Positions 12,370 to 17,018 of a stretch of DNA of 58,594 bases are shown piece by piece. The notes beneath the pieces were generated by a model. That model was given only the letters and a program-made list of their open reading frames with translations, ran no database searches and was not told where the DNA came from. The DNA comes from Ignavibacteriota bacterium (GTDB lineage: Bacteria; Bacteroidota; Ignavibacteria; UBA10030; UBA6906). Where the stretch lies: the NCBI GenBank assembly GCA_003158475.1, contig PMJR01000036.1, positions 17,164-75,757 of the forward strand, written 5' to 3'. Made by a program: the position numbers and the translations under genes. Positions within the stretch are counted from its first letter, which is position 1; each line of letters opens with the position of its first letter.

Positions 12370-14847
12370 ATGGCGAGTACCGCGCTCACGCTGTTGATAT
12401 CGGCCTGTGTGCTCACGATCCCGGCACTCGCCGCGGACGCACCGAAAGTGGTGAATGCGGTGCGTGTCGATTTCCCCCCTGTCATCGACGGGTGGGTCAA
12501 CGACGTCCAGTGGCAAAAAGCCCCCCCCATACTCGATTTCACACAATTCGACCCGGAAGAAGGAGTCCTCCCAACCGAGAGCACTTCTGTCAGACTGTTG
12601 TATGACGATCGTGCACTCTACGTCGGCGTCATTTGTTACGATGCCCGCCCGCAGAAAATAGTCCGCCAGCTGACCCGCAGGGACCGCAATTCCGAAGCCG
12701 ACCGGTTCAGCGTCATGATCGACTCATACTTCGACCGTCAGACCGCATTCGTGTTTGCCACCAATGTCTCGGGGGTCCAGAGTGACGGCGTCCTCTCGCA
12801 GGACGGGAATGTGTACGACATTACATGGGACGCGGTCTGGAATGTCCGCACCCGTGTCTTCCGGGACGGATGGTCCGCGGAGTTCGAAATACCCTACAAC
12901 GCGCTCCGGTTCGCCCAGCAGCCCAACGGCGTCTACCGCTGGGGAATCAACTTCAGGCGGTACATCAGCCGCAAAAAGGAGACCGACGAGTGGGTCATGG
13001 TCCCCCGGAGCGAAACATTGCAGATATCGAAATGGGGATATGTCGACGGGATACGGGGGATCGCTCCCCCCCTCCACCTGGAACTCCTCCCCTACATCTC
13101 CGGGACCGCCCAATACGAAACCGCGACAAATGCACGCCCGTGGTCGAAATCCTATAGGGGACAGGCGGGCGTTGATCTGAAGTACGGCGTGGCGAGGAAC
13201 TTCACGCTCGATGCGACGGTGAACCCGGACTTCGGTCAGGTGGAGGTGGACCAGTCCGTTCTAAACCTCACGGTGTTCGAAACCCGGTTCCCGGAAAAGC
13301 GTCCCTTCTTTTTGGAGGGGGCACAGATGTTCATGTTCGGGTCGAGCGTCGACAACACGCCGTTGTCCCTCTTCTTTTCGCGACGGATAGGGAAGCAACC
13401 GACAGGGAGCCCTTATGTCACGGCCCCCTCCGGGGGCTCTGTCGACGACAACCCGCAGGTCACGACGATACTCGGCGCCGGGAAAGTCTCCGGGCGAACG
13501 AACGGCGGGTTCTCCCTCGGAGCCCTGACGGCGGCGACGGGCGAGATGGACGCGATCACTGCCGATTCGGGGGGGAGCAAAACCCGCATCCGCACGGAGC
13601 CGCGCGGCTCGTACAACGTCGTGCGTGCAAAGCAGGAATTCGAAGGAGGGTCCTGGCTTGGGGGGATGGGGACCCTCGCCCTGCGTGACGGCATCCTCCC
13701 CGCCCTCACCGGCGGCCTCGACTGGAACGTCCATTTCGGCGGAAGCGCCTACACTCTTGACGGCTATGTCGCGGGAGCACGCTCATCGACGGAGCGCGTC
13801 CTGACCGACGGTTCCTCCGGGAGTGACGGAACGGCCGGCCGGCTCCTCTTCTCGCGCATTGCCGCCGAGCATTGGTTCTACGCGGGGTCGTTCGATTTCT
13901 ACTCCCGGTATTTCAGCTGTAACGACATCGGTTTCTTCGCGCAGCCGCATGACTTCGGTGATTACCTCCAGCTTCTCTACCGCGAGAATTTCGGTACCGG
14001 CATATTCCGCCGGTACGCTTTCTCATTCGTCCCCGCCACGCGGTGGAACTGGGACCATGTGCTGACAACATCTACCGCCGAGTTCACGTTTTACGGCGAG
14101 TTCCTGAACTTCTGGAAGCCGACGGTCGTCTATGACATCTATCTCCCGGCCTACGACGACGAAGAGCGCGGGATCATCGGGACGTACAGGCGCCCGGCGG
14201 GACATTCCCTCACCACGCAGGTCCAGACCGATCCCCGGGCAAACGTGTTCGCGACGCTCACGGGGACGTACGCGTTCAATGAGAAAGGGAAGAAGGCGCT
14301 GACCGGGTCGCTCGGCCTGAGCGTCCGGCCGGTGTCATGGGTCGAACTGAACCCCACCGTCCTGTGGCTCCGCTCGAGGAAGGAGGAGGCCTGGGTTTAC
14401 CCCGGGGGGAATGTCGTCGATGCGGGCGTTTCCCCTTTCCCGTTCAGCGTGTTCGCCGACAGGGATGTGGACGAGATGGACATGGAACTGAGGGGGACCG
14501 TCACGTTTTCGAAGAACTTCTCATTGCAGTGCTTCTCCCAGATACTTCTCGCGCGGGGGATCTACCGGAATTACCGGCGGTTCAACGGGGACACGCCCCT
14601 CCCCTATGACTATCCGTCGAACCCGGAGTTTGTGCACGCCGACTTCAACGAGGCGATTCTCAATGCGAACGTGTTGCTCCGCTGGGAATACCTTCCGGGA
14701 AGCACGCTCTACCTGGTCTGGACTCAGGGGAGGTCCGACGACAGCGGGGACTACGCGAGCGGGTTCGGCACGAGATTCCGTGACACATTCACGCTGCCGC
14801 ACGAAGACGCTCTGGTGTTAAAGATCAGCTACTGGTTCCCTCTCTGA
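12370..14847 (+). CDS. DUF5916 outer-membrane protein with N-terminal carbohydrate-binding-9-like domain
   Basis: The 825-residue protein has a signal peptide (cleavage near Ala-Leu-Ala-Ala-Asp, residue about 20-24). A CBM9-like beta domain (about 30-230: PPVIDGWVNDVQW, VRLLYDDRALYVGV) is followed by a long DUF5916 region rich in alternating aromatic strands and ending in Phe-Pro-Leu, as expected of an outer-membrane barrel. The family is widespread in Bacteroidota and has no established function. The 85-nt upstream gap shows no convincing promoter. The gene runs convergently into the hydrolase gene, overlapping its 3' end by 19 bp. Confidence 0.85.
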   Translation: MASTALTLLISACVLTIPALAADAPKVVNAVRVDFPPVIDGWVNDVQWQKAPPILDFTQFDPEEGVLPTESTSVRLLYDDRALYVGVICYDARPQKIVRQLTRRDRNSEADRFSVMIDSYFDRQTAFVFATNVSGVQSDGVLSQDGNVYDITWDAVWNVRTRVFRDGWSAEFEIPYNALRFAQQPNGVYRWGINFRRYISRKKETDEWVMVPRSETLQISKWGYVDGIRGIAPPLHLELLPYISGTAQYETATNARPWSKSYRGQAGVDLKYGVARNFTLDATVNPDFGQVEVDQSVLNLTVFETRFPEKRPFFLEGAQMFMFGSSVDNTPLSLFFSRRIGKQPTGSPYVTAPSGGSVDDNPQVTTILGAGKVSGRTNGGFSLGALTAATGEMDAITADSGGSKTRIRTEPRGSYNVVRAKQEFEGGSWLGGMGTLALRDGILPALTGGLDWNVHFGGSAYTLDGYVAGARSSTERVLTDGSSGSDGTAGRLLFSRIAAEHWFYAGSFDFYSRYFSCNDIGFFAQPHDFGDYLQLLYRENFGTGIFRRYAFSFVPATRWNWDHVLTTSTAEFTFYGEFLNFWKPTVVYDIYLPAYDDEERGIIGTYRRPAGHSLTTQVQTDPRANVFATLTGTYAFNEKGKKALTGSLGLSVRPVSWVELNPTVLWLRSRKEEAWVYPGGNVVDAGVSPFPFSVFADRDVDEMDMELRGTVTFSKNFSLQCFSQILLARGIYRNYRRFNGDTPLPYDYPSNPEFVHADFNEAILNANVLLRWEYLPGSTLYLVWTQGRSDDSGDYASGFGTRFRDTFTLPHEDALVLKISYWFPL

Positions 14848-15755
14848 TCACGCAGGTGGCGCACGAAGAAGCCGAGGACGCGCCGCCGGTACTCCTCCCC
14901 CCCCACATCCGCCATGTCATTGTGTTTCGCCCCGGCGATCAACCAGAGTTCTTTCGGGTCGTTCGCTTTGGCGTACACCATTTCCGAGTACCGTGAATCG
15001 ATGAGTGTGTCGGCGGTCCCGTGCATGATGAAGACCGGGACATGGACCTGGGTGACGGCTTCCAGGGGGGAGACGGTGTTCGCCTTAAAGTGGGCGAGAT
15101 GCTCGGAGCGCTTGATAACGATGTTCCGCAGGTAGTGCCAGGGGAGCTTGATCATCCGTTTCTGGTAATCGTCGAAAATCGTCCTGAGGGTAGCGAACCC
15201 GCTCTCCGCGACGAGGGCCACCACACGCGCATCGATCGCGGCGACCTGCACGGCGACCGCAGCCCCCATCGACGTACCGAACAGACCGATCTTCCCCGCG
15301 TGGAGATCCGCGCGTCCGGCGACGTGGCTGATGACCGCGCGCGCGTCGTGCTTCTCATAGAAGCCGTACGTGCAGTACGTCCCCCCGCTCTCGCCGTGCC
15401 GGCGTGAGTCGTACAAGAACACGTTGTATCCCAGGTCGTGGAGCTGTTTCGCCATCGGCAGTCCCACGATTTTGCATTCGCTGACGCCGTGGAGATAGAT
15501 CACGGTGCCTTCCGGTACCCCGTTGGCGCGAATCAGCCAGCAGCTGAGCGCAATCCCCTCCGGGGTCTTCAGCGCAACGTCCTCGAACGGGAGACCCAGG
15601 TCGGAAGGGTGCAATATGGTGGTGTATCTGCGGTAATACTCGATCGTCCGCCTATAGGGCTGCAGCAGCATCCCCGGTCCGATGACGAAGAGGACTGCGG
15701 AGACAAAAATGATGGCGATGAGTACCCACACGAGCGCGACGAAAAGTATCGTCAT
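14829..15755 (-). CDS. membrane-anchored alpha/beta hydrolase (esterase/lipase-like)
   Basis: The 308-residue protein starts with one hydrophobic segment (about residues 2-27), so it is probably anchored with the catalytic domain outside the cytoplasm. The alpha/beta hydrolase core shows the oxyanion strand VIYLHGVSE, the nucleophile elbow GLFGTSMGAA (Ser in GTSMG), a late IMHGTADTLID region holding the acid residue, and the catalytic His in GAKHNDM. It resembles the BEM46/YqkD-type hydrolases. The ATG at 15755 lacks a Shine-Dalgarno. Instead it overlaps the TGA of a short upstream ORF (ATGA), which suggests translational coupling. The frame stays open far upstream, but that part is antisense to the GT4 gene. 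The substrate is unknown. Confidence 0.85.
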   Translation of the reverse strand: MTILFVALVWVLIAIIFVSAVLFVIGPGMLLQPYRRTIEYYRRYTTILHPSDLGLPFEDVALKTPEGIALSCWLIRANGVPEGTVIYLHGVSECKIVGLPMAKQLHDLGYNVFLYDSRRHGESGGTYCTYGFYEKHDARAVISHVAGRADLHAGKIGLFGTSMGAAVAVQVAAIDARVVALVAESGFATLRTIFDDYQKRMIKLPWHYLRNIVIKRSEHLAHFKANTVSPLEAVTQVHVPVFIMHGTADTLIDSRYSEMVYAKANDPKELWLIAGAKHNDMADVGGEEYRRRVLGFFVRHLRDQRGNQ

Positions 15756-15787
15756 AACGGGGACATGATGGTGCGGGAGGTTTGCAT
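15752..15787 (-). CDS. putative leaderless 11-codon upstream ORF coupled to the hydrolase
   Basis: Reading leftward from 15787, ATG opens an 11-residue frame, MQTSRTIMSPL, ending in TGA at 15754-15752. That TGA overlaps the hydrolase ATG at 15755-15753. Its start lies 6 nt downstream of the -10 box TATATT (15798-15793), where transcription would be expected to begin, so the ORF would be leaderless. The hydrolase itself has no ribosome-binding site. A leader ORF that delivers ribosomes to the hydrolase is a reasonable reading, but an ORF this short could arise by chance. Confidence 0.35.
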   Translation of the reverse strand: MQTSRTIMSPL

Positions 15788-15792
15788 CTCTC

Positions 15793-15821
15793 AATATAAA
15801 CACCCCTTCGGCGTGAATCAA
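15793..15821 (-). promoter_or_regulatory. promoter of the hydrolase transcript
   Basis: On the minus strand TTGATT (15821-15816) and TATATT (15798-15793) are separated by exactly 17 nt. Transcription should start near 15787. It is back to back with the promoter of the GT4 gene, the two -35 boxes lying 8 nt apart, so a factor bound between them could control both. Confidence 0.65.
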
Positions 15822-15829
15822 CGGGCACT

Positions 15830-15858
15830 TTGCTTCTGCCTCGTGATCTCGGTATATT
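15830..15858 (+). promoter_or_regulatory. promoter of the GT4 glycosyltransferase gene
   Basis: TTGCTT (15830-15835), a 17-nt spacer and TATATT (15853-15858) form a good housekeeping promoter. The start codon at 15867 is only 8 nt beyond the -10 box and no Shine-Dalgarno precedes it, so the transcript should be leaderless or nearly so. Confidence 0.65.
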
Positions 15859-15866
15859 GACGCCGC

Positions 15867-17018
15867 ATGAGTCCAGCACAGCGACAGATACGCAGGGTCG
15901 CCATCGTCCATGAGTGGTTCACCACGATGCGCGGAGGCGAAAAATGTGTGGAAGCCCTGTGCGAAGTGTACCCGGAGGCGGACGTCTACGCGTTGCTCCA
16001 CGTCCCGGGATCCGTCTCTCCCGTGATCGAGCGGGCGCTTGTACGGACCTCTTTCGTGCAGCACCTCCCAGCGGCCGCCACGCAGTACCGCCGGTACCTC
16101 CCTCTCTTCCCCCTCGCCGTCCGTCAGTTCGATCTCCGCGGCTACGATCTCGTCATAAGCTCGAATCACTGCGTCGCCAAGGGTGCACGCGTTCACCCGG
16201 GCGCCCTCCACATCTGCTACTGCTACACGCCGATGCGCTACATCTGGAGTCAGTACGACGATTATTTTGGGAAGGGGCGGGCGGGACTTTTCACGCGCAT
16301 CGCGATGCGCTCGTTTGTCGGTCCGCTCCGGCGCTGGGACGTTGCGACGGCGACGCATCCGCGTCACTTTGTCGCAATTTCCGAGAACATCCGCGCGCGC
16401 ATACGGAAGATATACGGGCGTGATTCGGACATGATCTATCCCCCCGTGGACACCTCCCTGTTCACGCTCGCGGGCCGGGATGACGGCTACTACTTGATTG
16501 TGAGCGCGCTCGTTCCGTACAAGGCGGTCGACCTCGCCATCGAAGCGTTCAACCGTTCAGGAGACCGTCTCCTGATCGTGGGAGAAGGGCCCGACGCACC
16601 CCGTCTCCGGAAACTCGCGGGACCGCGTATCACATTCGAGGGCTGGCAGCCGGAGGACCGTCTCAGGGAATACTATGCAGGGTGCCGTGCGGTCATATTC
16701 CCCGGGGAAGAGGATTTCGGCATTGTCCCGGTGGAAGCCATGGCGACAGGGAAGCCGGTCCTCGCCTACGCGCGGGGAGGCGCTCTTGAAACAGTCTTTG
16801 ACCGCCCGGAGCTCAGGACAGGGGTCCTTTTTCCGGAGCAGACGATCGGCTCGCTCCTGGCGGGGCTTGGCATTCTGAAGGATGCGGAATTCGATCCGGC
16901 GCGTATCCGGGCGCATGCGCTCACCTTTGATAGGGAGCTTTACAAACAGCGGATGAAGGAATACTGCACCCGCCGCTGGGACGAGTTTGTGGGCGAATCC
17001 CCACAAGTGCATGACTGA
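15867..17018 (+). CDS. glycosyltransferase family 4 protein
   Basis: The 383-residue GT-B enzyme has an N-terminal acceptor domain beginning VAIVHEWFTTMRGGEK and a linker VISSNHCVAKGA. The donor domain carries LIVSALVPYKAVDLAIEAF, LLIVGEGPDAPRLRKLAG and the GT4 donor-binding motif FPGEEDFGIVPVEAMATGKPV. The pair E-x7-E falls within EDFGIVPVE. Such enzymes add sugars from nucleotide donors to polysaccharide or lipid-linked acceptors. The protein has no signal peptide and is cytoplasmic or membrane-associated. It is transcribed alone from a leaderless promoter and is divergent from the hydrolase. The specific sugar is unknown. Confidence 0.88.
   Translation: MSPAQRQIRRVAIVHEWFTTMRGGEKCVEALCEVYPEADVYALLHVPGSVSPVIERALVRTSFVQHLPAAATQYRRYLPLFPLAVRQFDLRGYDLVISSNHCVAKGARVHPGALHICYCYTPMRYIWSQYDDYFGKGRAGLFTRIAMRSFVGPLRRWDVATATHPRHFVAISENIRARIRKIYGRDSDMIYPPVDTSLFTLAGRDDGYYLIVSALVPYKAVDLAIEAFNRSGDRLLIVGEGPDAPRLRKLAGPRITFEGWQPEDRLREYYAGCRAVIFPGEEDFGIVPVEAMATGKPVLAYARGGALETVFDRPELRTGVLFPEQTIGSLLAGLGILKDAEFDPARIRAHALTFDRELYKQRMKEYCTRRWDEFVGESPQVHD

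Follow-up and report, generated by a model that had tools for sequence, protein, structure and literature searches.

An 11-codon frame overlapping the start of a hydrolase gene in Ignavibacteria: a predicted leaderless mini-ORF behind a fixed promoter

In the parts of the report by Shell et al. (2015; PMC4633059) drawn on here, mycobacteria are described as having leaderless "coupled" small ORFs that are linked to the following gene by an RTGA sequence; the linkage is conserved, the peptide is divergent, and re-initiation has been proposed. The RTGA overlap is over-represented in Mycobacterium tuberculosis (23 of 220 versus 32 of 1000). The cited sections of Beck et al. (2016; PMC4965119) describe upstream AUGs at the 5' termini of Escherichia coli messages, some of which affect the downstream gene. 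A 2011 survey, in the part used here, places leaderless genes in only 1 of 37 genomes of Bacteroidetes/Chlorobi, where they are nearly absent (PMC3160421). A literature search for leaderless starts or 5'-end maps from the Ignavibacteria found no paper on the subject, and neither did one on coupled leaderless genes and transcription start sites in the Bacteroidota; PMC10783764, in the portion of its text at hand, mentions Ignavibacteria once, in a table.

The locus described here lies in the window, that is, the whole stretch of 58,594 nucleotides that was analysed (contig PMJR01000036.1 of the Ignavibacteriota assembly GCA_003158475.1). Its anatomy is established (Table 1). The original prediction had read two TTGnnn-N17-TATATT promoters facing apart with their -35 boxes 8 nt apart, and this is correct to the base, as is the distance of 8 nt between the rightward -10 and the ATG of the glycosyltransferase (GT4) gene. 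The ATG of the 11-codon frame, placed by the prediction 6 nt past the leftward -10, begins at the sixth base, so that 5 nt intervene. The TGA of this frame was also rightly said to overlap the hydrolase ATG (as ATGA), and the hydrolase does lack a ribosome-binding site, GGAG, GAGG, and AGGA being absent at 4 to 17 nt upstream of its ATG. The GT4 start falls within the range that defines a leaderless gene in our analysis (codon 4 to 9 nt past the -10), and the same promoter recurs 8 nt ahead of the GT4 ATG in L010, L011, and G005. An Rfam scan of the window matched no known regulatory RNA.

Table 1. Features of the divergent region (positions within the window)
Feature	Coordinates	Strand	Basis and remarks
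Alpha/beta hydrolase (S33/Hydrolase_4), 308 aa, hydrophobic N-terminal stretch	14829..15755	-	Pfam; ortholog-backed start
ATGA overlap	15752..15755	-	Hydrolase ATG 15755-15753, mini-ORF TGA 15754-15752
11-codon mini-ORF, MQTSRTIMSPL plus TGA	15752..15787	-	ATG 15787-15785, 5 nt past the -10; predicted at or adjoining the message 5' end; frame 15787-15752: ATG CAA ACC TCC CGC ACC ATC ATG TCC CCG TTA TGA
Leftward hydrolase promoter, TTGATT-N17-TATATT	15793..15821	-	Sequence reading, motif upstream of orthologs; -35 TTGATT 15821-15816, 17 nt, -10 TATATT 15798-15793, then GAGAG 15792-15788
Spacer between both -35 boxes, 8 nt	15822..15829	.	Sequence reading
Rightward GT4 promoter, TTGCTT-N17-TATATT	15830..15858	+	-35 at 15830-15835, -10 at 15853-15858
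Glycosyltransferase group 1 (GT4)	15867..17018	+	Pfam; ATG 15867, 8 nt past the -10; message predicted to be leaderless or almost so

The locus is like the mycobacterial RTGA cases, as far as they are described in the cited parts of PMC4633059, in that a small ORF lies at the predicted 5' end of the message, its TGA covers the next start, and the linkage is kept while the peptide diverges. It differs from them in belonging to another phylum and in being predicted from DNA alone. With the E. coli uAUGs of PMC4965119 (same sections) it shares a predicted AUG at the 5' end of a message with a further gene downstream; however, that further gene has its own Shine-Dalgarno sequence in E. coli, whereas the hydrolase has none. 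A stop-start overlap as a coupling signal is also found in termination-reinitiation at ATGA overlaps (PMC6728339), although in the cases given in the cited part of that paper the overlap joins full genes. On this comparison, the architecture is one already known from mycobacteria, and the lineage (Ignavibacteria, Bacteroidota) appears to be new.

Both promoters are genuine, beyond chance. TTG-N20-TATATT is present in 127 copies in the 3.75-Mb genome versus 2 for the reversed control, and its -35 box mostly extends as TTGA or TTGC (base table of 83 own-genome sites). Conservation of the promoter ahead of the hydrolase is exact: all 30 scored orthologs (L009 to L038) have TTG-N20-TATATT upstream. 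The motif is missing upstream of the three distant homologs checked from outside the class (L065, L070, and L081). The named hydrolase relatives are MAGs labelled Ignavibacteria, Ignavibacteriae, or Bacteroidota. The back-to-back layout was rejected as a special feature; it is recurrent, ordinary, and common across the order. The own genome has 4 such pairs within 30 nt versus 0 for the control, and 60 genomes contain 161 pairs with -35 gaps of 0 to 30 nt versus 50 with gaps of 31 to 61 nt (forward counts summed by hand; because the pattern is its own reverse, each pair is counted once). As a separate observation, the hydrolase promoter is unusually uniform in L009 to L038, where it mostly reads TTGCTT or TTGCAT, although across the genome the -35 most often takes the form TTGA. 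This may point to a common regulator or a sigma preference.

The hydrolase start position is likewise established. In six of the 30 orthologs (L016, L017, L020, L022, L023, and L034), the hydrolase ATG itself lies 5 to 6 nt past the -10. Because the -10 adjoins the same ATG in these six relatives, the start homologous to 15755 is fixed and the gene can be directly leaderless; a misplaced hydrolase start is thereby ruled out. Our sample of own-genome promoters covers 88 of the 127 sites (80 stretches plus the window), 86 of which were used for enrichment. At these 86 sites, ATGs 4 to 9 nt past the -10 that open at least 60 codons number 11 versus 5.2 expected, with the expectation taken from positions 10 to 59. 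Where an ATG falls in the 4-to-9-nt range at family sites (239 sites), it most often stands 5 nt (61 sites) or 8 nt (50 sites) past the -10, as the mini-ORF and GT4 ATGs do here. Because of this enrichment and the six direct orthologs, leaderless starts are predicted to be used in this order and by the hydrolase gene.

Within the family, 18 hydrolase orthologs fall into three states: five are direct (leader of 5 to 6 nt), five have a mini-ORF with ATGA, and eight have other leaders (20 to 159 nt). Outside the family, 11 of 12 orthologs have leaders without a coupled mini-ORF and 1 is direct; L038, also from outside, has a short ORF at +9 whose stop is not at the hydrolase start. The mini-ORF and its overlap are found in the own genome, in L010 and L011 of genomes G002 and G003 (11 codons each), in L012 of G005 (13 codons), and in L019 of G008 (20 codons). 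In all five, the ATG lies 5 nt past the -10 and the TGA overlaps the hydrolase ATG, and the sizes (11, 11, 11, 13, and 20 codons) fit the 5-to-50-codon class of RTGA small ORFs. Leader lengths with a mini-ORF are 37 and 43 nt in the own clade and 64 nt in G008, equal modulo 3. The original prediction would have been contradicted by close relatives that keep the hydrolase start and lack the mini-ORF, and no such relative was found in the clade formed by the own genus and the sister genus. Four genomes of the own genus were examined (the own assembly and three others), one of which has no close hydrolase ortholog; the three that have the hydrolase, together with sister-genus genome G005, all keep the mini-ORF and ATGA (4 of 4 of the clade). 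In the protein tree, the own genome, G002, G003, and G005 form a clade with support 99/98, and G008 is separate. With the labels mini, direct, and leader assigned by us from the ortholog upstream sequences, at least two state changes are needed on this tree, with which a single origin is compatible.

Within the genus, the mini-ORF body is identical at 23, 19, and 17 of 29 positions in the three pairs (59 to 79%), so that it drifts at about the same level as the 4-fold sites of the hydrolase (70 to 72% identical). Every genus pair, by contrast, agrees at 8 of 8 positions of the ATG plus 5-nt spacer, with zero indels. Between the genus and G005 and G008, the hydrolase 4-fold sites are only 38 to 44% identical, near saturation, and the ATG at +5 and the frame are retained. 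The ATG and the frame thus persist despite the drift of the body. As with RTGA small ORFs, it is the linkage that is kept rather than the peptide, in a small sample of three genus sequences. That the mini-ORF serves to make a conserved peptide was rejected, its five versions having no sequence in common. Judged from these alignments, the position and frame of the mini-ORF are held more firmly than its sequence, and the pattern of constraint, with its small numbers, would fit a frame that matters by being translated, whatever peptide it encodes.

The best-supported account, to which we give a probability of about 0.5, is that the leaderless mini-ORF is translated and passes ribosomes to the overlapping hydrolase start. 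The two back-to-back housekeeping-type promoters would produce leaderless or nearly leaderless messages both ways. The rightward GT4 message would start at or just ahead of its own ATG, and the leftward message would start at the ATG of the 11-codon frame, with its 5' end probably at 15787. Needing no Shine-Dalgarno sequence, ribosomes would load on this 5'-terminal AUG, translate the 11 codons, and stop at the TGA within ATGA, whereupon a fraction may re-initiate on the overlapping hydrolase AUG. Re-initiation at this AUG is plausible, and the frame would serve as a landing strip whose peptide has no conserved role. The evidence for coupling consists of the promoter in 30 of 30 orthologs, the 11 versus 5.2 leaderless starts, the clade-wide ATGA, the neutral drift of the body, and the lack of a Shine-Dalgarno sequence; the evidence against it consists of the 8 of 18 family leaders without a mini-ORF or direct start, a count of 6 versus 3.7 short ORFs in the own genome, and a per-gene p of 0.14 (see below). 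Because these eight family orthologs have neither a mini-ORF nor a direct leaderless start, the hydrolase is likely translatable from a leader lacking a Shine-Dalgarno sequence. Moreover, because family relatives start directly (5 of 18) or behind another leader (8 of 18), the gene is not generally dependent on the mini-ORF. The original proposal of the leaderless mini-ORF as a loader for the hydrolase is therefore sustained in part: the predicted leaderless ATG positions and the conservation of the mini-ORF and ATGA in the clade favor it, whereas the mini-ORF is dispensable in the rest of the family and the enrichment is weak.

The main rival, which has a substantial chance of being true, is that the mini-ORF is incidental. 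The hydrolase would then have a leader of about 30 nt lacking a Shine-Dalgarno sequence, with a direct start on its own AUG as in most relatives, and the ATG at +5 would be a chance triplet not yet lost. The leaders without a mini-ORF, both in the family (8 of 18) and outside it (11 of 12), agree with this, as does the peptide, which is not conserved. Furthermore, short ORFs at the leaderless position in the own genome are near background and not clearly enriched (6 versus 3.7 expected, 86 sites), and the ATGA enrichment elsewhere is weak. However, the sister genus, at saturated 4-fold divergence, retains the ATG exactly at +5 as well as the overlap, and a rough post hoc estimate puts the chance of this at 0.002 for the exact place (1/64 multiplied by the 0.112 null) and at about 0.01 for anywhere from +4 to +9.

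A broader set of 243 promoter sites served to assess the ATGA enrichment. The family site search gave 241 matches and was restricted to TTGA or TTGC -35s and to sites with a base other than G at 100 nt beyond the ATG; 239 of the 241 were used, the other two being second ATGs of the same promoter. Because a leaderless-position ATG was a search condition, the 243-site sample is biased toward it, and no mini-ORF frequency was derived. At 54 of the 243 sites, a leaderless-position short ORF is followed by a gene of at least 60 codons, and the ATGA overlap is present in 12 of these 54 versus a null of 11.2% (60 of 534 arbitrary frames, taken from leaders that have no leaderless ATG; p 0.015). Five of the 12 cases are hydrolase copies, and with one case per gene the count is 8 of 46 (p 0.14). 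Beyond the hydrolase, the enrichment is weak, whereas the overlap is enriched in M. tuberculosis, according to the cited part of PMC4633059. The raw share of ATGA stops does not differ between the short frames (14 of 59) and the other two frames (30 of 139), a comparison confounded by in-gene Met codons, which is why the leader-based null was adopted. A strict Shine-Dalgarno sequence precedes 3 of the 12 genes coupled by ATGA, 14 of the 40 with another mini-ORF, and 19 of the 83 with plain leaders (background, 56 of 540); the counts are not decisive, and a shift in Shine-Dalgarno use was dropped as an explanation. The idea that RNA structure masks the hydrolase start was rejected, since 15 folded orthologs show no clear difference: the start region is predicted to be unpaired with a probability of 0.11 to 0.64 in five mini-ORF cases, 0.40 to 0.65 in five direct cases, and 0.23 to 0.61 in five with other leaders.

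It is improbable that the mini-ORF acts as a restraining uORF, which would capture ribosomes at the 5' end and lower or condition translation of the hydrolase. The mini-ORF does sit between promoter and gene, and five family relatives start directly without it, but the four-base overlap favors passing ribosomes on, and the five peptides contain no run of codons for a single amino acid. This finding (made by eye), together with the absence of any Rfam family in the window, also led us to reject amino-acid attenuation. Finally, it is very improbable that the hydrolase message has its main start elsewhere than at the leftward promoter-like sequence, given the genome count of 127 versus 2 and the exact motif in the 30 orthologs and in all nine testable further named ignavibacterial loci (10 were examined, one being truncated by a contig end).

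Other genes behind this promoter also have mini-ORFs. Ahead of a GlnE-like gene, the mini-ORF ATG is present in 3 of 4 genus genomes, with the frame lost in G002 and G003 and the ATG lost in G001; in contrast to the hydrolase mini-ORF, this shows what absent constraint looks like. An adenylate/guanylate-cyclase-like gene (L266 to L269; own site L125, G000:C54) has a 4-codon mini-ORF whose ATG and ATGA are present in 4 of 4 genus genomes, with the exact promoter ahead of it in 3 of the 4. A translational GTPase gene (Pfam GTP_EFTU; L107, which is G000:C30, and L258, L259, and L260), presumably LepA-like by its N-terminus, has a conserved 20-codon leaderless-position ORF in 4 of 4 genomes examined that ends 9 nt upstream. 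Conservation is higher in the core of this ORF, AAGTCCGCCCCG...GGGACGGATTTT, than on either side of it; the core seems able to self-pair and has no Rfam match. A conserved 11-codon frame, MVVIYA(E/N/K)LQRP, lies 5 nt past the -10 of the exact promoter in L157, L222, and L263 and is followed by conserved DNA, a region without an Rfam, tRNA, or tmRNA match.

The hydrolase family displays both states, direct and mini-ORF, under one fixed promoter. For a single gene of this Bacteroidota lineage, a direct leaderless start is predicted in some species and access via a leaderless mini-ORF in others, which makes the family a clean natural comparison for whether a 5'-terminal mini-ORF passes ribosomes to a gene lacking a Shine-Dalgarno sequence. 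More generally, and tentatively, leaderless initiation may be regular in Ignavibacteria, and ATGA-coupled leaderless mini-ORFs might represent a selected means of ribosome loading on genes without a Shine-Dalgarno sequence that would be evolutionarily interchangeable with a direct leaderless start.
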